Shown: piece after piece, positions 1 to 16,494 of the stretch | How the letters are laid out: each line of letters starts with the position of its first letter | Numbering within the stretch: position 1 is the stretch's first letter | Assembly (NCBI GenBank): GCA_007131685.1 | Contig: SLQD01000080.1 | Coordinates: forward strand, 1-34,567 | Length of the DNA stretch: 34,567 nucleotides | Direction: 5' to 3' | Source of the DNA: Paracoccaceae bacterium | Lineage (GTDB): Bacteria; Pseudomonadota; Alphaproteobacteria; Rhodobacterales; Rhodobacteraceae | Notes under the pieces: model-generated | The model's database searches: none | Told to the model about the DNA's origin: nothing | The model's input: the letters and a program-made list of their open reading frames with translations, nothing else | Translations under genes and position numbers: made by a program

Positions 1-218
1 AGCGCGGCGCCGAAGACGATGAACCCGATGCCCGCGATGCGCGGGAAGAGCTGCGGGCTGATCCCGGAGGTGCTGCGCCCGAAAAGCGCCGGCGGCTCGG
101 CGACCTGATACGGCGTCAGCACGAAGATCGCCGCACCGAGCAGTATCGAGCCGAGCGCGACCACGGTATTGAAATTGAACCGTTTCGGGCTGTCGCCGCG
201 CGCCTGCTCGTCGCTCAT
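1..218 (-). CDS. TctB-like small membrane subunit of a tripartite tricarboxylate transporter (partial, runs off window start)
   Basis: Reverse-strand reading from ATG at 218: MSDEQARGDSPKRFNFNTVVALGSILLGAAIFVLTPYQVAEPPALFGRSTSGISPQLFPRIAGIGFIVFGAAL; TctB-like TM1 and 'SPQLFPR' region. Confidence 0.6.
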   Translation of the reverse strand, partial: MSDEQARGDSPKRFNFNTVVALGSILLGAAIFVLTPYQVAEPPALFGRSTSGISPQLFPRIAGIGFIVFGAA

Positions 219-243
219 GCCCGCGTCCTTTCGCGCGGCGCGC

Positions 244-1143
244 TCACGCCGCGCCGCCAAAGAGCAGCGCGAACCAGACGATGCCGGGCAGACCGGCGAG
301 TGTGAGCGCGGTGGAGACCACGATGACGCCCGCGATGCGCTCGGGCGCGCGGTCGAAACGTTCGGCGAAGATCATGTTGATGACCGCCGCCGACATCGTC
401 GCCATGATCCAGACCACCCCGGCCTGCGGGCCCTGCAGGCCGAGTGCCGCGATGATCGCGAGCGCCCCGCCCGCCCCGGCGGCGAAGCGCAGCGCCGACA
501 TGCCCACCGCCACCTTCAGATCCGCCACCTTGAGCCGCGCCAGCGACACCCCGAGCAACAGCAGCATCGCCGGGATCACCAACCCCGCCAGAAGCTCCGT
601 GCTGCGCGCGATCCAGCCCGGCACCGGCCATTCGAGGACGAGCACCAGGATCGTCACCGCGCTGGCATGGATCACCGGCTGGCGCAGCAGCGCGCCGGGA
701 TCGAAGCGCCCCGCGCTGATCACGAGGCCCAGCGTGTTCTGCGATATCGAGACGACCAGAAAATACGCGATCGCCAGCGCGAGCCCCTCGACGCCGAACG
801 CCATCGCCGCGAGCGGCAGCCCCATATTGCCCGAGTTGCCGTGCATCGCCGTCAGAAGATAGGTGTGCAGCGGCATGTCGAGCACCCGCAGCACCGCAGC
901 GCCGATCAACGTCGCCACCGCGATCGCGCCGGCCGCCGCGAGCGCCATCTCCCCGACCTCGCTGACCCGGATCTGCGCGCCCGTCAGTGTCGAGAAGATC
1001 AGGCAGGGCGTGCCGACGCGCAGCACCACCGCGCCGATCGTGTCCGAGTCGAACGGCAGCCCGAGGCGCGCCCAGGCCAGCCCCAGCGCCACGATCACGA
1101 AGACCGGCGCGCTCAGCGCAAGCAGCTCCACAATCACGCCCAA
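244..1143 (-). CDS. AEC family (auxin efflux carrier type) permease
   Basis: 299 aa hydrophobic ORF with AEC-like features (FSTLTGAQI, HGNSGNMGLPLAAMAFG); apparent TTG start preceded by GAGGGG. Confidence 0.85.
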   Translation of the reverse strand: MGVIVELLALSAPVFVIVALGLAWARLGLPFDSDTIGAVVLRVGTPCLIFSTLTGAQIRVSEVGEMALAAAGAIAVATLIGAAVLRVLDMPLHTYLLTAMHGNSGNMGLPLAAMAFGVEGLALAIAYFLVVSISQNTLGLVISAGRFDPGALLRQPVIHASAVTILVLVLEWPVPGWIARSTELLAGLVIPAMLLLLGVSLARLKVADLKVAVGMSALRFAAGAGGALAIIAALGLQGPQAGVVWIMATMSAAVINMIFAERFDRAPERIAGVIVVSTALTLAGLPGIVWFALLFGGAA

Positions 1144-1200: not shown

Positions 1201-2142
1201 TCATGCGTCCCCCCCGTCGGATGGGCGTTCGCATCCGGCCGCACGCTCCATCACCCGGCAGACCGCCGCGGCGTCGAGATGGGCGAGCCCCTGCGCGCTG
1301 GCGGCATGGTAATACTGCACGGCGAGCTGGTAGAGTGGGATCGGCACCCCCATCCGCGCCGCGTGTTCGGCGATGATCGGCGCATCCTTGAGCGGGACCG
1401 AGAAATTCATCCCCTCGCGCGCATAGTCGTTCTGCGCCATCAGCGCCCCGCGCACCTCGAACATCGCCGAGCTCGAGCCGCTGCCCGAGATCACCTCGTG
1501 AAACATCTCCGGGTCGAGCCCGGACTTCATCGCCAGCACCATCGCCTCGGCCGCGACCGTGTTATGAACGAGGTTGAGGATGTTGCCGCAGAACTTGGTC
1601 TTGGAGCCGTGGCCGAACGGGCCGACGAAATGCGTCTTCCTGCAGAACGTCTCGAGCACCGGGCGGATCGCGGAGTAGTCGTCGCGCGCCCCTGAACAGA
1701 AGGCCGTCAGGCCGCGTTCTAGCGCCATGATCCGGTTGCCGCTCACGGGGCAGTCGAGCGCGCGCCGGCCGCCCGCGGCGAGGATGTCGCGCGCCGCCTC
1801 CTTGTCGGCGACCGCGAGGGTGGACATCTCGACGATGACCTGGCCGCCCTCGGGAAGCGGCGCGTCGGCGAGCGCCCGGCTCACCTCGGCGAGCGTGCCC
1901 GCCGAGGGCAGGCAGGTGAAGATCACGGGGCAGTGCGCGCCGGCATCCGCGAGATCCGGCGCGGGCACGATCCCGGCGCGCTGCGCGGCGGCGCGCGCCT
2001 GCGGGTCGGGATCGACGCCGTGCACCGCGTAGCCTGCGGCGGCGATGTTCGCGGCCACCGCCGAGCCGAGCACCCCGAGACCGACGAAGCCGATCGCGGC
2101 GCCGGGCGCGCCTGCGGCGGGGGGCGCGTCCGGCGCGCTCAT
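1201..2142 (-). CDS. NAD(P)-dependent oxidoreductase, 3-hydroxyisobutyrate dehydrogenase family
   Basis: N-terminal Rossmann GFVGLGVLGSAVAANIAAAGYAVHGVDPD, substrate motif DCPVSGN, K in GSKTKFCGN; overlaps the upstream gene by ATGA. Confidence 0.9.
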   Translation of the reverse strand: MSAPDAPPAAGAPGAAIGFVGLGVLGSAVAANIAAAGYAVHGVDPDPQARAAAQRAGIVPAPDLADAGAHCPVIFTCLPSAGTLAEVSRALADAPLPEGGQVIVEMSTLAVADKEAARDILAAGGRRALDCPVSGNRIMALERGLTAFCSGARDDYSAIRPVLETFCRKTHFVGPFGHGSKTKFCGNILNLVHNTVAAEAMVLAMKSGLDPEMFHEVISGSGSSSAMFEVRGALMAQNDYAREGMNFSVPLKDAPIIAEHAARMGVPIPLYQLAVQYYHAASAQGLAHLDAAAVCRVMERAAGCERPSDGGDA

Positions 2143-3128
2143 ACCCGCTCGATCCCGCCGCTCGCGGTGGAGCGGATGATCGCCTCGAAGCTGGCCACGT
2201 TGGCACGCATCTCGTCATGGGTTACGGGATAGGGCGCGATGCCGCGCACGGCCTGCGCGAAGGCCTCGAGATTGGCGCGCACCACCGGGTGCGGGGCGAA
2301 GAAACGGCTCGTCGGCTGCCCGCCGCGCAACATCTCGAGCATGTCCCAGCCCGCCGGGGTCTCCGGATGGGCCCGGTCGCGGATCTCCGTCCAGCCCTCG
2401 GCGCCGAACACCGCGAAGCGCCCGATGAAGGGCGTGGCGAGCAGCGCCGTGAGTGTCGCCGAGGCGCCATTCGCGAAACCCAGCGTGATCGACAGCGTGT
2501 CGCCATTGGCGAAGTCCGATCCGCGCGTAGCAAGCCGCGCCCAGACCTCGTGCGGGCGCCCGAGCAGCGCGATCGACAGATCGACGAGATGGATGCCGGT
2601 TGCCGAGAGCGGCCCCGCCGGCGCCTCCTCGGGCGAGAAGCGCCAGTTGTCGCGCGGCAGGGCGAGAAACTTGTCCTGGCTGAAATTGCCCTCGATGTTG
2701 AGGATCGCGCCGAACGCGCCGCGGGCGAACCGCTCGCGCAGCTCGATGATCGCGGGCTCGAACCGGCGCTCGTGACCGATCCCGAGCACCACCCCCGCAC
2801 GCTCGACCGCGGCGAGCGCCGTCTCGACCTCGGCGCGTGTGGTGCAAAGCGGCTTTTCGCAGAAGACATGCCGCCCGGCCTGCGCGGCGGCGGCGATCTG
2901 CTCGGCATGGAAGCGGTGCGGCGAGCACAGCACCACCGCCTCGACGCGCGGATCCTCGAGCGCCGCCTCGAACCGGTCGGCGACGCGCAGACCGGCGCCT
3001 TCCGCGTTGGCGCGCGCGGCCGGGTCGGGCTCGACGGCGAGGACTGGGTCGAGGAGCGCGCTTTCGCGTGCCTGCGCGGCGATCGTGCGCCCCCACCAGC
3101 CCATCCCGACGATGGCGATTGCGGTCAT
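2139..3128 (-). CDS. Gfo/Idh/MocA family oxidoreductase
   Basis: MTAIAIVGMGWWGRTIAAQ, CEKPLCTT (EKP motif), GIHLVDLSIALLG. Confidence 0.92.
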   Translation of the reverse strand: MTAIAIVGMGWWGRTIAAQARESALLDPVLAVEPDPAARANAEGAGLRVADRFEAALEDPRVEAVVLCSPHRFHAEQIAAAAQAGRHVFCEKPLCTTRAEVETALAAVERAGVVLGIGHERRFEPAIIELRERFARGAFGAILNIEGNFSQDKFLALPRDNWRFSPEEAPAGPLSATGIHLVDLSIALLGRPHEVWARLATRGSDFANGDTLSITLGFANGASATLTALLATPFIGRFAVFGAEGWTEIRDRAHPETPAGWDMLEMLRGGQPTSRFFAPHPVVRANLEAFAQAVRGIAPYPVTHDEMRANVASFEAIIRSTASGGIERV

Positions 3129-3441: not shown

Positions 3442-4386
3442 ATGCAGTGCAGCCTTCGCGACATGGCGATCTTCGTCGCCGCCTTCGAGGAGCGTTCGTT
3501 CACCGCCGCCGCGCGCCGCGAGCACACGACCCAGTCCGGCGTCTCGCAGCATATCCGCAATATCGAGGATCTGCTCGGCGTGCAGCTCTTCCTGCGCGAG
3601 CGCGTCGGCGTCGCCCCGACCCCGGCGGCGGCGCGCTTCTATCGCAGTTGCCTGCGCGTGCTGCGCAGCCACGCCGATGCGCATGGCGAGATGGCGCGCT
3701 TTCGCGGCGGCGCGGCGGGGCAGCTGCGCATCGGGCTGATGCCGACCCTGACCAGCGCCGCCCTCGCCCCGGCCCTCGAGACCTTCATGCAGGACGCGCC
3801 CAATGTCGCCGTGCGCGTGACCGAGGGGTACGGCACTGCGCTCACCGCGATGGTGCGCGCCGGCGAGCTCGATTTCGCCATCGTGCCGGCGCAGTGCGGC
3901 GGCGACGGGATCAGTGCGCGGCCCTTCCTGCGCACCCGGGAGGCGCTCGTCTCGCGCGGGCTGAGCGGGGTCGGTCGCCGCGCGCCGGTGCGGCTGCGCG
4001 ATCTCGGCGCGCTCGACCTGATGCTGCCGGGGCAGGGCAATCCGCGCCGCCGCGCGATCGATGCCTATTGCGCGGCGGCCGGCGTCGCGATCGGCCGCGT
4101 CCAGGAGCTCGACACCGTGCTCGGGACACTCGATTTCGTTGCGCGAAGCGACTGGATGACGGTGCTGCCCGCGATCGCGACGGCGCGCGAGCAGCGCCGG
4201 CTGAGCATCAACCCGATCGTCGATCCGCCGCTCACGCTCGAGCTGGCGCTGATCGAGCCGGCCCGCCGTCCGCCGCCGGCGCATGCCGAGCATTTCCTCG
4301 GGCTGCTGCGGCTGGAGGCGCAGCGCCTCGGCGAGCGCGACGCGGTGCACCGCGCCCCGGCTCAGGCGATGGCGGACACCCTGTGA
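3442..4386 (+). CDS. LysR family transcriptional regulator
   Basis: MQCSLRDMAIFVAAFEERSFTAAARREHTTQSGVSQHIRNIEDLLGVQLFLRERVGVAPTPAA, canonical LysR HTH; start chosen at the ATG after GGGGAGACGG. Confidence 0.93.
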   Translation: MQCSLRDMAIFVAAFEERSFTAAARREHTTQSGVSQHIRNIEDLLGVQLFLRERVGVAPTPAAARFYRSCLRVLRSHADAHGEMARFRGGAAGQLRIGLMPTLTSAALAPALETFMQDAPNVAVRVTEGYGTALTAMVRAGELDFAIVPAQCGGDGISARPFLRTREALVSRGLSGVGRRAPVRLRDLGALDLMLPGQGNPRRRAIDAYCAAAGVAIGRVQELDTVLGTLDFVARSDWMTVLPAIATAREQRRLSINPIVDPPLTLELALIEPARRPPPAHAEHFLGLLRLEAQRLGERDAVHRAPAQAMADTL

Positions 4387-5300
4387 GCGCGGTGCGAATC
4401 GCCGGCTACCAGGGTCCCGCCTCGATCAACACGGAGGCGCTCGAGGCCCTCGCTGCGGGGCTTGATGCCGAGCGGCCCGAGGGGCTGGCGCAGGAGCTGT
4501 GCGCGGACGTGACGGCCGCAGGCGGCACCGCACAGGACCTGTTCGCCGATCTCGAGGCCGGGGGCACCCAGATCGGCTACATGGCCTCGGGCTACCTGAC
4601 CGCGCGGGTCCCGGAACTGGCGGTGCTCGACCTGCCGTTCTGCGTCGACGACCGCGCGCGGGCGCATGCCGCGCTCGACGGCGCGGTGGGCGCGCGCCTG
4701 CGCGACGCGATCGCGGCGCGCACCGGGCTTCGGGTGCTCGGCCTGTGGGATAACGGCTTTCGCCATGTGTCGAGCCGCACCGGGCCGCTGCGGCATCCGC
4801 GCGACTGCCGCGGGCTGCGGGTGCGCACGATCGACAATCCGATCTATGTCGAGACCATGGCCGCGCTCGGCTTCGAGCCGGTGGTGACCGATGTCGCCGA
4901 GCTGCGCGCCGCGGTCGCCCAGGGGCGCGTCGATGCGCAGGAGAACCCGCTCACCAACACGGTCAGCTTCGATCTGCACCGCCATCACGGCCATGTCGCG
5001 CTGACGCGGCATTTTCACGGCGTGATCCTGCTCGTCGCGCATGCCGGGTTTCTCGACGCGCTCGCCCCGGCACGGCGCGACCGCCTCGATGCCGCGGTGC
5101 GCGCCGCGACGACCCTGCAGCGCCGCCGTGCCGAGGAGCAGGAGGCCGCCGCGCTCGCGACGATGCGCAACGCCGGGGTGCGGATCACGGCGGCGCCCGA
5201 TCTCGACCGCGACGCGTTTCGCGCCGCCGCTGCGCCCGTGCTCGCGCGGGCGCGGGGTGCGCTGCCGGACGATCTCGTCGCGCGCTATCTCGGCGCCTAG
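4383..5300 (+). CDS. TRAP-type DctP-like solute-binding protein homologue lacking a signal peptide
   Basis: GTG start overlaps the LysR TGA (GTGA). Translation VSAVRIAGYQGPASINTEALEALAAGL...LAVLDLPFCVDD...RGLRVRTIDNPIYVETMAALGFEPVVTDVAELRAAVAQGRVDAQENPL matches the DctP fold signature; no secretion signal. Confidence 0.8.
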   Translation: MSAVRIAGYQGPASINTEALEALAAGLDAERPEGLAQELCADVTAAGGTAQDLFADLEAGGTQIGYMASGYLTARVPELAVLDLPFCVDDRARAHAALDGAVGARLRDAIAARTGLRVLGLWDNGFRHVSSRTGPLRHPRDCRGLRVRTIDNPIYVETMAALGFEPVVTDVAELRAAVAQGRVDAQENPLTNTVSFDLHRHHGHVALTRHFHGVILLVAHAGFLDALAPARRDRLDAAVRAATTLQRRRAEEQEAAALATMRNAGVRITAAPDLDRDAFRAAAAPVLARARGALPDDLVARYLGA

Positions 5301-6217
5301 ACGCCGAGCCCCGCCGGCATGCGCCAGCCCGCCGCGGACAGCTCGCCGCGCAGCGCCGCGGTCTGCTCGGCGGTGAGCGGTTGCAGCGGCAGCCGCAGCG
5401 CCGCGAATCGCGCGTCACCGGTCTGCTCCGCGATCACCGCCTTCGCCGCGGGGATCAGCGGGTAGCGCCCGAAGATCTCGCGCACCTGCGCGACCTCGCC
5501 CTGCAGCGCCTCCGCCTGCGGCGTGCCGAGCGCGTCGTAGAGCGCTCGGATCGCGGCCGGGTTGATGTTGCCCGAGGCGGTGATGCAGCCGACCGCGCCG
5601 AGCGCGTGCGCCCGCGCGAGCACCCCTTCGGAACTCGGGAAGACGCGAAAGCCGGGAAACCGCGCGAGTATGGCGGCGGTGTTGTCCCAGTCGCCGGAGC
5701 TGTCCTTGATGCCCATCACGGTGTCGGGAAAGTCGCGCAGCAGCGTCTCGATGAGCTCGTGCGGGATCGCCACGCCGCTCATCTGCGGGATGTGATACAG
5801 CCACAGGCCGAGCGCGTCGGAGCCCACCGCCTCGATCAGCGCCGCGTACCAGGCATGCAGTCCCTGCGCCGAGACCGGCTTGTAATAGAAGGGCGGCAGC
5901 GCCAGCACCCCGCCGCAGCCCAGCCCGACGGCATGGCGCGTCAGCGCGACCGTATCCCCGAGCGCGCACATCCCGACCCCGGGCATCAGCCGCTCCGGCG
6001 GCACGCCGGCCTCGACGAGCGCCTCGAGCAGGCTCATGCGCTCGGCAGGAGTCATCGAATTGGCCTCGCTGGTGGTGCCGAACACCGCAAGGCCGTGCGC
6101 CCCGCTGTCGAGCAGCCACTTGCAAACCGCGACGAAGGCTGCCGGGTCGGGCGCGCCGGTTCGATCGAAGGGCGTGATCGCCGGGACGAGCAGCCCGGCG
6201 AAGTCGGTTTTCGGCAT
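5297..6217 (-). CDS. Dihydrodipicolinate synthase / N-acetylneuraminate lyase family protein
   Basis: MPKTDFAGLLVPAITPFDRTGAPD, GTTSEANSMT, LYHIPQMSG (Tyr), GIKDSSGDW (Schiff-base Lys); GGAGAGAG before the ATG. Confidence 0.92.
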   Translation of the reverse strand: MPKTDFAGLLVPAITPFDRTGAPDPAAFVAVCKWLLDSGAHGLAVFGTTSEANSMTPAERMSLLEALVEAGVPPERLMPGVGMCALGDTVALTRHAVGLGCGGVLALPPFYYKPVSAQGLHAWYAALIEAVGSDALGLWLYHIPQMSGVAIPHELIETLLRDFPDTVMGIKDSSGDWDNTAAILARFPGFRVFPSSEGVLARAHALGAVGCITASGNINPAAIRALYDALGTPQAEALQGEVAQVREIFGRYPLIPAAKAVIAEQTGDARFAALRLPLQPLTAEQTAALRGELSAAGWRMPAGLGV

Positions 6218-6323
6218 CTCTCTCTCCATCCTCGGCGCGGCGACGCGGCATGCGCGCGCCGGACCCTCCAGCGTCGCCACGGCGCGGCGCCTGCACGGCC
6301 CGCACCCGATCACGATCATCTGA

Positions 6324-6582: not shown

Positions 6583-7275
6583 ATGGCGCGGATGCAGGAA
6601 GTTGACGGGCCGGTGCTTGCACGCACGGATATCTACAGAAGGCTGCGCGCCGAGGTGCTCAGCTGCGCGCTGCGCCCGGGGCAGCAGTTTCAGGAGCGCG
6701 ATCTCGTCGCGCGATTCGGCGTTTCGAAATCGCCGATCCGCGATGCGCTGATCAAGCTCGAGGCGCAGGGCCTCGTCGAGGTGCTGCCGCGCAAGGGATA
6801 TCGCGTTCCGCCGATCGACCTGCGCGATGTCAAGGAGATGTATGAACTGCGCCAGATGCATGAGCGTGCGTGCATCCAGGGGATGATCGGCGCGGCGACG
6901 GCGGAGACGTTCGCCGGGCTCGATGCCTACCGCGCCGCGCCGGACAGTTCCGATCTCGCCGCCTGGGTTGATTACAACCGCAGGTTTCACGCCTTCATCG
7001 CCGGGCATTGCGGCAATCGCCGGCTCGCCCGGATGGCCGTCGAGCTCATCGAGGAGTTCGACAGGCTGACCTATTTCGGGGTCGCGCATACCCGGCAGAT
7101 CTCGACCGACGCCTTCGTTGCCGAGCACTGCGCGATCATCGATGCGATTCAGGCGCGCGACAGCCGCAAGGCCGTCGCGCTCGCGCGCCAGCATGTCGAA
7201 AGCTCGCGCCGGCGCGTGCTCGACAATCTCGAAACCGCCCCGGTCGTCAGGACCCGCCCCGGCGCGGTCGCATGA
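6583..7275 (+). CDS. GntR family transcriptional regulator (FCD-type C-terminal domain)
   Basis: YRRLRAEVLSCALRPGQQFQERDLVARFGVSKSPIRDALIKLEAQGLVEVLPRKGYRV wHTH; helical FCD-like C-terminus. Start could be 6583 or 6592. Confidence 0.92.
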   Translation: MARMQEVDGPVLARTDIYRRLRAEVLSCALRPGQQFQERDLVARFGVSKSPIRDALIKLEAQGLVEVLPRKGYRVPPIDLRDVKEMYELRQMHERACIQGMIGAATAETFAGLDAYRAAPDSSDLAAWVDYNRRFHAFIAGHCGNRRLARMAVELIEEFDRLTYFGVAHTRQISTDAFVAEHCAIIDAIQARDSRKAVALARQHVESSRRRVLDNLETAPVVRTRPGAVA

Positions 7276-7321: not shown

Positions 7322-7741
7322 ATGATGAGCGACGATCCCTATGCGGGCTGGCCCGCCGGGCTGCGCGAGGAGATGGAGGCGAACGCCTGGAACCCCTGCG
7401 TGGGCAGCGTTCTCGTCTCCGAGGATGAGCGCGTGCGCGTGTGGCATCTGCACATACCGGCCGGCAAGCGCTGCCCGTTCCACCGCCATGTGCTCGACTA
7501 TTTCTGGACCTGCCACTCGCATGGCAGCGCGCGCAACTACTTCGAGGGCGGCGCGACCCGCGAGGTTGCGCATTTTCCGGGCGATACGCGCCACATGACC
7601 TACGGGCCGGGCGAGTACAAGCTCCACGCCGTCGAGAACACCGGCGATACCGACCTGCTCTTCACCACGGTGGAGTTCAAGGACAGTGCGAACGCGCCGC
7701 TCGACGTGCCGGGCGAGGCGCGGCTCAAGGCCACGGCCTGA
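7322..7741 (+). CDS. Cupin domain-containing protein
   Basis: VWHLHIPAGKRCPFHRHVLDYFW...[32 protein letters not shown] upstream. Confidence 0.8.
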   Translation: MMSDDPYAGWPAGLREEMEANAWNPCVGSVLVSEDERVRVWHLHIPAGKRCPFHRHVLDYFWTCHSHGSARNYFEGGATREVAHFPGDTRHMTYGPGEYKLHAVENTGDTDLLFTTVEFKDSANAPLDVPGEARLKATA

Positions 7742-7770: not shown

Positions 7771-8916
7771 ATGTATGCTCATCCCGGCGTGACCACCGCG
7801 CCCGAGATGCCTGTGCCCGAGCGCATGTGTGCATGGGTCCTGGGCGATCCCGGCGCGCTGCACCACACGACCAAGCCGACCCCGGTGCCGCGGCGCGGCG
7901 AGGTGCTGGTGCGGATCGATGCGGTGGCCATCTGCGCGACGGATCTCGACGTGATCGCCGAGGGGCCGCCGGCGCTCATCGAGGGCGGGCCGCCCTTCAA
8001 CAGGAACTTCACGCCGGGCCACGAATACATGGGCACCGTCGCCGCGCTCGGCCCCGGCGTCGACGAGTTCGCCATCGGTGACCGCGTCACCGTCGAGATC
8101 CACGCCGGCTGCGGGCAGTGCAAGCGCTGCCGCATGGGGATGTATACCTCCTGCCTGAATTACGGCCTGAATTACGGCGACCGCGACAAGGGGCACCGGG
8201 CCAACGGCTTCACCACCGATGGCGGTTTCGCCGACTACGCCGTCAACAACATCAACACGCTGATCCGCATCGACGACGCGATGAGCGATGCCGAGGCGAC
8301 GCTCGTCGTCACCGCGGGCACCTCGATGTATGGCCTCACGGAGCTCGGCGGACTCATCGCCGGCGAAGGTGTCGCGATCACGGGGCCGGGCCCGATCGGG
8401 CTGCTCGGCGTGGCCGTGGCAAAGGCGCTCGGGGCGTCGCCCGTGATCCTGACCGGCACGCGCGACGCCCGGCTCGCCGTCGGGCGCGATCTCGGCGCCG
8501 ATCATACGGTGAATGTCCGCGAGCGCGACCCGGTGGAGGCGGTTGCCGCGATCACCGATGGCCACGGCGTCGATTACGTCGTCGAGTGCTCCGGCGCCCC
8601 CGGCGCGATCGACCAGGCCGGCCGGATGGTCAATCGCGGCGGGCGGATCTGCCTTGCCGCGTTTCCGCATGACCCCGATCTCATCGACGTGGCCCATCTG
8701 GTGCGCAACAACATCTACATCTACGGCATCCGCGGCGAGGGGCGCAGCGCGACGCACCGAGCGCACGCCTTCATGGCCCAGAAACGCTTCGATGCGACGC
8801 GGATCCACACCCACAGCTTCGCGATGGACGAACTCGAGACCGCGCTTCGCTATGCCCGCGAGCGGGTCGAGGACGCGATCAAGGTCGTGGTGCACAATCG
8901 CGAGCCGGCTGGCTGA
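7771..8916 (+). CDS. Zinc-dependent alcohol dehydrogenase (MDR family)
   Basis: GHEYMGTVAALGPGV, structural Zn Cys cluster CGQCKRCRMGMYTSC, nucleotide-binding GPGPIGLLGVAVAKALGA. Confidence 0.93.
   Translation: MYAHPGVTTAPEMPVPERMCAWVLGDPGALHHTTKPTPVPRRGEVLVRIDAVAICATDLDVIAEGPPALIEGGPPFNRNFTPGHEYMGTVAALGPGVDEFAIGDRVTVEIHAGCGQCKRCRMGMYTSCLNYGLNYGDRDKGHRANGFTTDGGFADYAVNNINTLIRIDDAMSDAEATLVVTAGTSMYGLTELGGLIAGEGVAITGPGPIGLLGVAVAKALGASPVILTGTRDARLAVGRDLGADHTVNVRERDPVEAVAAITDGHGVDYVVECSGAPGAIDQAGRMVNRGGRICLAAFPHDPDLIDVAHLVRNNIYIYGIRGEGRSATHRAHAFMAQKRFDATRIHTHSFAMDELETALRYARERVEDAIKVVVHNREPAG
8155..8178 (+). repeat. Perfect 12-bp in-frame tandem duplication (CTGAATTACGGC x2) inside the alcohol dehydrogenase gene
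   Basis: Direct inspection; encodes (LNYG)(LNYG). Confidence 0.95.
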
Positions 8917-13661: not shown

Positions 13662-14642
13662 ATGAAACGCATCCTTGCCTGCTCCACCGGCCTTCTCGGC
13701 GGGGCCGTACTCGCGGCATCGGCCGCCACCGCCCAGGAGATCCGCGTCGCCACGGTGGTCTCGGCCCCGCATCCCTGGATCGACGCTGCCGAAGTCTTCA
13801 AGGAGGAGGTCGAGGCCCATACCGACTACACCGTCGAGATCTACCCCGGCGGCCAGCTCGGCGATGACGAGACGGTCGTGGACGAGATGCGGATCGGCAC
13901 GGTCGATGTCACGATCGGCGGGGTGGGCAATATCTCGCCCTTCGTGCCCGAGTTCGAGTTCTTCGCGCTGAGCTACCTCTTCGCCGACATGGACGGCTTT
14001 CGCGCGGTCACCGACCGCGAGAGCGAGGTCTTCGCGTTCTTTCACGATGTCGTCGCCGAGGCCGATGTCGGGCTCGAGCTTCTGGCGCTCACCGGCGGCG
14101 GCACCCGCAATCTGAGCACCGCCGAGGGCCCCGTCACCCATCCCGACGACCTCGACGGCGTGCGCATGCGCACCACCGGCGCGCAGCTCGACCAGGACAC
14201 CTGGGGCGCCCTCGGCGCCGTGACCACCTCGCTGCCCTGGACCGAGCTCTACTCGGCGGTCCAGACCGGAGTGGTCAGCGCGTTCGAGAGCACGATCAGC
14301 GGCTATGTCGGATCGAACCTCTTCGAGGTGGCGCCCTATCACAGCAAGACCGAGCATCAGGTGATGATGAGCCATATCTCGATGGCGTCGCTGCGCTGGG
14401 ATCAGCTCTCGGAAGACGAGCGCGAGGTGATCGTGCGCGCCGCGGACATGGCCGGCCGGCACGGCACCGAGATGGGCGTGCAATACGACGCCGAACTCAT
14501 CGAGGAACTCGCCGACCGCGGCGTCACGGTCAGCGAGGTCGATGCCGAGGCCTTCATGGCCGCGACGGGGGCGCTGCACGAGGAGTATGCTGCCGAACTC
14601 GGGCTGAGCGATCTGCTCGAGACCGTTCGCGCGCTTCAGTGA
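13662..14642 (+). CDS. TRAP transporter substrate-binding protein DctP
   Basis: Signal peptide MKRILACSTGLLGGAVLAASAATAQ; EIYPGGQLGDDETVVDEMRIGTVDVTIGG, GVRMRTTGA; SD AGGAGA. Confidence 0.92.
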   Translation: MKRILACSTGLLGGAVLAASAATAQEIRVATVVSAPHPWIDAAEVFKEEVEAHTDYTVEIYPGGQLGDDETVVDEMRIGTVDVTIGGVGNISPFVPEFEFFALSYLFADMDGFRAVTDRESEVFAFFHDVVAEADVGLELLALTGGGTRNLSTAEGPVTHPDDLDGVRMRTTGAQLDQDTWGALGAVTTSLPWTELYSAVQTGVVSAFESTISGYVGSNLFEVAPYHSKTEHQVMMSHISMASLRWDQLSEDEREVIVRAADMAGRHGTEMGVQYDAELIEELADRGVTVSEVDAEAFMAATGALHEEYAAELGLSDLLETVRALQ

Positions 14643-14650
14643 AGTCCCGC

Positions 14651-14683
14651 CCCGCCCGCAGCCCGGCCACGGCTGCGGGCGGG
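14651..14683 (+). promoter_or_regulatory. Intercistronic stem-loop between TRAP dctP-type and dctQ-type genes
   Basis: CCCGCCCGCAGCC-(CGGCCAC)-GGCTGCGGGCGGG: perfect 13-bp stem, 7-nt loop, no T-tract. Confidence 0.85.
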
Positions 14684-14700
14684 CCCGCCGGAGTCCGCGC

Positions 14701-15201
14701 ATGCGCCTGATCAATGACTGGATCGAGCGGCTCTTCATGTTCGTGGCGAGCACGCTCTTCGCGCTGTTCATCGCCTGCATCTTCTTTCAGGTCGTCGCCC
14801 GGAACTACCTGCGCATCTCGGTGGGCTGGACCGACGAGGTCGCGCTGATGTGCTTCGTGTGGTCGGTGTTCCTCGGGGCGGCCGTCGCGCTGCGCCGGCG
14901 GGTGCACTATGTCGTCGACATCCTGCCGCCAGGCTACGTCAACGCGACCAACGCGCTGCGGCTGTTCGGCGCCATCGCCTGCCTGCCGGTGATCTACGTG
15001 CTCGTCGTGCACGGCTACACCTATGCCGACATGGGCTGGCGGCGCAGCTCGGTGTCGCTGCGGCTGCCGCTCTTCTACATCTTCGCCGCGATCCCGGTCT
15101 CCGGCGTCGCGATGGTCCTGTTCTCGGCTGAGGTGATCCTCGAGGACATCCGCCGCCTGCGCGCGCGCACCCCGCCGCCGCGCATCGATGAGACGTCCTG
15201 A
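14701..15201 (+). CDS. TRAP transporter small permease (DctQ)
   Basis: Four-TM protein, ARNYLRISVGWTDEVALMCFVWSVFLGAAVALRRRVHYVVD. Confidence 0.92.
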   Translation: MRLINDWIERLFMFVASTLFALFIACIFFQVVARNYLRISVGWTDEVALMCFVWSVFLGAAVALRRRVHYVVDILPPGYVNATNALRLFGAIACLPVIYVLVVHGYTYADMGWRRSSVSLRLPLFYIFAAIPVSGVAMVLFSAEVILEDIRRLRARTPPPRIDETS

Positions 15202-15204
15202 CAC

Positions 15205-16494
15205 ATGCCCCCTGTTCTGACGCTGATCCTGAGCTTTCTGGTCTTCATCGCGCTGCGGGTGCCGATCGCCTTCGCGATCGGGCTCGCCTCGATCGTGACG
15301 ATCTATCAGCTGGGGATCCCGCTGACCTCGGTCGTCACGCAGATGTTCTCCTCGATCAATTCCTTCCCGCTCCTCGCGGTGCCGTTCTTTCTGCTGCTCG
15401 GGCGGCTGATGAACGATGGCGGCATCACCGACCGGCTGCTGAAGTTCGCGGATGCGACCGTCGGCCATATCCGCGGCGGGCTCGGCCACATCAACGTTAT
15501 GGTGTCGATGATGTTCGCGAGCCTGTCGGGTTCGGGCGCGGCCGACACGGCGAGTGTGGGCGCGGTGATGATCCCGGCGATGAAGAAGGCGGGCTATCCG
15601 CCCCGCTTCGCCGTCGCCCTGACGGCGGCCTCGTCGGTGATGGGCGGCATCATTCCGCCCTCGATTCTGATGGTGATCTACGGCGCGTTCGGCAACGTGT
15701 CGGTGGGGGCGCTGTTTCTGGGCGGGATCGTGCCCGGATTGCTGATCGGCGCCTCGCAGATGGGCTACACCTACTACGTGGCGCGCAAGATCGGGCTGAA
15801 GGCCGAGGGCGAGTTCTCGCTTTGCACGATGTATCGCACCGGGGTGACGGCGCTGCCGCCGATGATCCTGCCCGTGATCATCCTCGGGGGGATCACGCTG
15901 GGCGTGTTCACGGCCACCGAGGCGGCGGCGATCGCCGTGATCGTCGGGCTTGCGCTGGCGCTGCTGCTCTATCGCTCGATCCGCCCCTCGGGCATGCCGC
16001 AGATCCTGTCGGACTCGGTGATCGCCTATTCGCTGCCGATGTTCGCGGTCGCCTCGGCCGGGATCATGGGCTGGCTGATCGCCTATCTCGGGGTGGCGCG
16101 CGAGGTCGCGGAGTTCATCACCTCGGTCACGCAGACGCGGATCGGGCTGATGCTGCTCGTGGGCGGCTTCCTGCTCGTGGTGGGCACGGTTCTCAGCCCG
16201 GTCACGGCGGTGATCATCTTCCTGCCGATCATTCAGAGCATCGCGAATTTCGGCGGCATCGACCAGATCCATATGGGGCTCATCGTCGTGCTCACGCTGA
16301 CCCTCGGCCTCGTCACGCCGCCCTACGGAATCTGCCTGCTGATCGCGACGCAGATCGGCGGCATCCCGACGCCGCAGGCCTTCATCGCGATCCTGCCGCT
16401 TGTCGGGATGGTGCTCGCGATCATCGTGGCGGGGATCGTGTTCCCGGGCCTGTTCCTCTACCTGCCCTGGACGCTGATGCCCGGCTCCTTCTGA
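15205..16494 (+). CDS. TRAP transporter large permease (DctM)
   Basis: SLSGSGAADTASVGAVMIPAMKKAGYPPRFAVALTAASSVMGGIIPPSILMVIYG, characteristic DctM motif. Confidence 0.96.
   Translation: MPPVLTLILSFLVFIALRVPIAFAIGLASIVTIYQLGIPLTSVVTQMFSSINSFPLLAVPFFLLLGRLMNDGGITDRLLKFADATVGHIRGGLGHINVMVSMMFASLSGSGAADTASVGAVMIPAMKKAGYPPRFAVALTAASSVMGGIIPPSILMVIYGAFGNVSVGALFLGGIVPGLLIGASQMGYTYYVARKIGLKAEGEFSLCTMYRTGVTALPPMILPVIILGGITLGVFTATEAAAIAVIVGLALALLLYRSIRPSGMPQILSDSVIAYSLPMFAVASAGIMGWLIAYLGVAREVAEFITSVTQTRIGLMLLVGGFLLVVGTVLSPVTAVIIFLPIIQSIANFGGIDQIHMGLIVVLTLTLGLVTPPYGICLLIATQIGGIPTPQAFIAILPLVGMVLAIIVAGIVFPGLFLYLPWTLMPGSF

Follow-up and report, generated by a model that had tools for sequence, protein, structure and literature searches.

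We found that a DctP-fold protein encoded in the window (the whole 34,567-nucleotide stretch of Paracoccaceae DNA analysed here) belongs to a family of TRAP-type solute-binding proteins without signal peptides, which lie in operons for acid catabolism served by a transporter of another type, TctABC. Since these proteins have no export tag and are set among genes for that other transporter and for acid degradation, the family probably works inside the cell on an imported acid. What we propose, with about even confidence, is a cytosolic component of the pathway, acting on the carboxylate after its import, that is, an enzyme derived from a solute-binding protein and belonging to an old leaderless clade. 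The following genes of the window bear on this proposal, with L130 denoting an orthologous locus from the same genus and L136 and L137 two further ones.

3-260, minus strand: tctB fragment for the N-terminal part, truncated at the contig edge; it has no Pfam match and, across 67 aa, shares 63% identity with the L130 protein of the TctB cluster
244-1143, minus strand: AEC-type membrane transport protein (Pfam Mem_trans, 2e-16; 73% identical gene in L130)
1201-2142, minus strand: HIBDH-type dehydrogenase (Pfam NAD_binding_2/NAD_binding_11; 69% identical gene in L130)
2139-3128, minus strand: Gfo/Idh/MocA oxidoreductase, first in the divergent operon (Pfam GFO_IDH_MocA, 2e-21)
3442-4386, plus strand: LysR-type regulator, ATG 3442 to TGA 4386 (Pfam HTH_1, 3e-19; LysR_substrate, 9e-34)
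4383-5300, plus strand: leaderless DctP-fold protein, 305 aa, GTG 4383 to TAG 5300 (Pfam DctP, 6e-50)
5297-6319, minus strand: DHDPS-family lyase, convergent (Pfam DHDPS, 2e-39; a homologue adjoins the DctP gene in L136 and L137)
6583-7275, plus strand: GntR/FCD regulator (Pfam; two homologues flank the L130 DctP gene)
7322-7741, plus strand: small cupin-like protein, a cupin by appearance only, with no match in Pfam or NCBIfam (72% identical in L130, 57% in L137)
7771-8916, plus strand: Zn-dependent alcohol dehydrogenase (Pfam ADH_zinc_N, 1e-27; in L136 and L137 a 69% identical gene directly follows the DctP gene)
13662-16494: dctPQM set with a secreted DctP

The open reading frames and Pfam confirmed the arrangement described in the initial annotation, a LysR gene followed by a DctP gene whose GTG at 4383 overlaps the LysR stop codon as GTGA. 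That the overlap is exactly 4 bp is likely rather than proven, because translation could equally well start at a second GTG, at 4392 (VRIAGYQ..). The ligand-binding hallmarks had been described as retained, and both RVRTIDNP and QGRVDAQENPL were found; it also proved correct that no dctQM genes adjoin the gene, the nearest dctPQM set, about 8 kb away, having its own secreted DctP. At its other end, the DctP gene converges on the DHDPS-family gene, and their stop codons fall in a shared 4 bp (5297-5300); the true start of the lyase may be inside its ORF. The contig ends within the tctB-like gene, which cuts short the divergent operon (Gfo/Idh, HIBDH-type, AEC); the operon probably continues into tctA/tctC beyond this point. 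The genome of the window (assembly 92.6% complete) yielded no cognate TctA; the best match there to the same-genus TctA reached 40% and lay on another contig. NCBIfam gave no specific reaction or pathway for the neighbouring enzymes, and the best scores of the window enzymes all fell under the equivalog cut-offs.

The DctP frame is open back to 3447, inside the LysR gene. Upstream of 4383/4392 it would encode a charged stretch rich in Pro and Arg, with no signal peptide. From either GTG, a few residues at most separate the start of the protein from its first strand (E4-7 in the AF2 model). All readable orthologue N-termini, which were judged for an export signal by eye, start a few residues (at most about 20) before a GGYQ..S[VI]HTRA-type motif (e.g. 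FGGYQ..SVHTRA). An upstream start with a signal peptide was rejected on the upstream translation and these orthologue N-termini; the hydrophobicity score also used against it is weak evidence, because Rossmann enzymes score high too. The earlier claim that the gene is leaderless was thus borne out, and orthologues with a signal peptide, named there as a refutation, were not found at any readable N-terminus. Since readable orthologues start near the mature fold and form one clade apart from the secreted DctPs, leaderlessness is old and selected, and not a result of decay or of a start-site error.

By searching genomes of the same genus, family, order, class and phylum together with public genome contigs, we obtained about 39 orthologous loci (the window, L031-L044, L130-L149 and L166-L169), mainly from alpha- and betaproteobacteria. 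Several are MAG contigs, L038 is truncated by the end of its contig, and L041-L044 are closely related to each other. The observation goes beyond chance: the orthologues, at 32-57% identity, keep the gene, its start position and the pocket residues. The family is sparse, being present in 6 of 298 genomes of the family draw, 10 of 395 of the order draw and 5 of 385 of the class draw, with the window's genome counted each time; it was met again in one further family of the phylum, where 4 of 251 genomes had an orthologue, one of them 100% identical to L034. No matches were obtained in a plasmid search. A profile search of 399 phylum genomes at E<=1e-60 returned, beyond the window, five ordinary DctPs (L151-L155), which were rejected as family members, all five being without GYQ and signal peptides being readable in L151, L153 and L155. 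A tree built from 32 leaderless DctPs and 94 others places the leaderless proteins in one clade that includes L046 (SH-aLRT 100, quick method), and L151-L153 are sister to the leaderless clade plus L046; the base of the clade is uncertain because of long branches (L149, L046). Thirteen columns are invariant in the family, and the members read show no signs of decay. L046 (5600-6800) is itself an actinobacterial (Ilumatobacter) MAG fragment in which the N-terminal part does not share a frame with an apparent other gene; this N-terminus looks like a chimera, frameshift or truncation. The contig of L043 is filed under a Chitinophaga pinensis MAG; its protein and gene order match those of betaproteobacterial L041/L042, and the placement is probably a binning error.

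The AF2 model of the window protein (pLDDT 94.8, pTM 0.91) has the solute-binding fold, and the best 50 PDB matches in a fold search were all TRAP solute-binding proteins, mostly at a TM of about 0.9. R148 is invariant in the leaderless sequences (32/32), is also found in all secreted DctPs compared, and aligns with the conserved family Arg of 4p9k and 4pdh. Its equivalent in SiaP, Arg-147, occurs in 96.8% of DctPs, and the interaction of this Arg with the carboxylate confers high-affinity binding (PMC4646407). R127, N188 and H210 are common to most secreted DctPs, and G8, Y9, Y66, C142, F164, N192 and G213 hardly occur outside the leaderless clade. Y9 would presumably match the pocket position of SiaP Asn10, which we take as a lead only. 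Among the nearest structures, 4p9k, 4pdh, 4nq8 and 4xeq were reportedly solved with short hydroxy-acids, e.g. D-erythronate or pantoate; such acids suggest themselves as candidate ligands worth trying.

The conserved context of the family is catabolic, with a TctABC transporter, Gfo/Idh and HIBDH-type dehydrogenases, a DHDPS-family lyase, a Zn-dependent alcohol dehydrogenase and a cupin. Neighbourhood genes were called by our own script and clustered by single linkage, and 35 leaderless loci were compared with 63 secreted-DctP loci by Fisher tests, in which relatedness and unequal locus lengths are ignored: TctC was found in 24 against 3, Gfo/Idh in 24 against none, and DctM in three (L033, L139, L149) against 59. 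TctA, the Zn-dependent alcohol dehydrogenase and DHDPS occur in 15, 14 and 11 of the 35, respectively; HIBDH-type genes occur in 14 and also in 15 of the 63 secreted-DctP loci. On the same strand, the gene next to the DctP gene is in many cases TctC, TctB, Gfo/Idh, HIBDH-type or AEC, either overlapping it by 1-4 bp or separated from it by a short gap, and TctC stands directly upstream in three further loci. L130 shares with the window the AEC, HIBDH-type and cupin-like genes at the identities listed above, two GntRs and TctB; in the region L130:8542-11319 the leaderless DctP gene lies between two GntR/FCD genes, 51% and 56% identical to the single GntR of the window. Directly downstream of the DctP gene, L136 and L137 have the Zn-dependent alcohol dehydrogenase and the DHDPS-family gene (42%). 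In L041-L044, HpcH/HpaI-aldolase and BKACE genes are transcribed away from the family gene, after which come Gfo/Idh, PdxA-like and two TctC genes; the substrate there possibly differs from that of the window. One lineage (L145:10372-11115, minus strand; also L144, L146 and L148) has, a short way upstream of the DctP gene, a conserved gene for about 245-252 aa, whose L145 copy matched nothing in Pfam or NCBIfam.

The initial annotation had proposed a binding fold moved to the cytosol as a ligand sensor, a buffer or a partner of the LysR protein. The conserved, undecayed cytosolic fold with its pocket is supported; the link to LysR is not, and we consider it very unlikely that the protein is a dedicated LysR partner fixed by translational coupling. 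The GTGA overlap is present in the window, and the LysR gene and the Gfo/Idh operon diverge, as is usual for LysR regulators, but the proposed survey of relatives showed the overlap at only 1 of 35 loci, the window itself. L131 has a LysR gene upstream at a distance of 618 bp, and in no other of the 35 loci is LysR the direct upstream neighbour; the orthologues overlap TctC, HIBDH-type or Gfo/Idh genes in its place. The L130 DctP gene has no LysR beside it, a 46% identical LysR being about 14 kb off, and in a search of G001, G329 and G565 a LysR of the window type at E<=1e-40 was absent from G329 and G565, although both have orthologues. Inverted repeats between the divergent operons revealed no clear LysR site. 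A LysR partner is thus disfavoured because the overlap is not conserved. The same annotation took such a lack of conservation as pointing to a decayed transporter protein; the overlap is indeed unconserved, but decay is contradicted by the conserved leaderlessness. A decayed subunit or mis-called start would fit a gene orphaned from dctQM in a frame open far upstream, and is scarcely credible against about 39 loci in which the start position is kept, 13 columns are invariant and the members read show no sign of decay.

An enzyme is more likely than a LysR partner. According to our proposal, TctABC would import a hydroxy-acid or sugar-acid, and the cytosolic DctP-fold protein would close on this acid or the next intermediate via R127/R148/N188. 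The family-specific Y9, Y66 and N192 and the conserved H210 would then perform one conversion step, which may fall before or between those of the Gfo/Idh, HIBDH-type, Zn-dependent alcohol dehydrogenase and DHDPS-family enzymes. We infer the catalysis, and the ligand would be the Tct substrate or its product. An enzyme is favoured because the gene occurs together with enzymes and a transporter and not with one regulator, and because of the residues invariant only in the family; overlaps or short gaps join it to Tct, dehydrogenase and other catabolic genes, and no single kind of regulator accompanies it. What counts against an enzyme is that, judged from the alignments, the canonical binding residues are all kept, as in a plain binder, and no single missing reaction can be named because the neighbouring enzymes vary between lineages. 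A cytosolic binder serving as sensor, buffer or channelling protein, which would bind the acid unchanged and signal a regulator or supply an enzyme without requiring LysR, is possible, yet rather unlikely and not favoured. The TRAP carboxylate-binding residues and fold are intact, the Arg/carboxylate contact in SiaP giving high affinity (PMC4646407), and nearby regulators are of several kinds (LysR, GntR/FCD, GntR/UTRA); however, none is constant, the direct neighbours are mostly Tct or enzyme genes, and LysR and GntR/FCD regulators carry their own ligand-binding domains. The frequent adjacency of tctA/B/C would also suit a periplasmic binding protein whose export signal escapes recognition and which serves the Tct membrane part or another transporter. 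This is highly improbable, as TctC is already encoded in the Tct operons, receptors of the DctP family belong to TRAP and not to TTT transporters, and no readable N-terminus has an export element.

The family resembles the DctP TRAP solute-binding proteins (PF03480; SiaP, 4p9k, 4pdh) in the whole fold, in R148, R127 and N188, and in the QENP and NGFRH motifs. Unlike them, its readable members have no signal peptide, the dctQM partner is missing at nearly all loci, and it has the extra invariants G8-Y9, Y66, C142 and N192 and a separate clade. The TctC/Bug receptors (PF03401) of the same operons are periplasmic, come from a separate gene and belong to a different Pfam family, and the window protein has no PF03401 match in Pfam. 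Enzymes are known to have evolved from solute-binding proteins, such as cyclohexadienyl dehydratase and MqnD, cited there (PMC7683729); they likewise re-use a solute-binding fold for a non-transport job, whereas they come from other solute-binding protein families and catalysis here is putative. Cytosolic single-domain proteins matching such Pfam profiles are a recognised class, about 1% of all the proteins retrieved there being predicted to be cytosolic, and the consulted part of that paper names no leaderless DctP family tied to TctABC operons (PMC9602780). At the title and abstract level, a literature search gave no report of a leaderless DctP family.

We know of no example of an enzyme descended from TRAP DctP binding proteins, and we suggest, tentatively, that this cytosolic family of alpha- and betaproteobacteria, acting on acid imported by TctABC, may be one. 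Its members are likely annotated as transporter subunits, because the genes match TRAP solute-binding-protein models. Here a binding fold would be re-used inside the cell beside an unrelated type of transporter, providing a testable case of a binding protein becoming an enzyme or a cytosolic sensor, and the family marks a set of uncharacterised acid-degradation operons.
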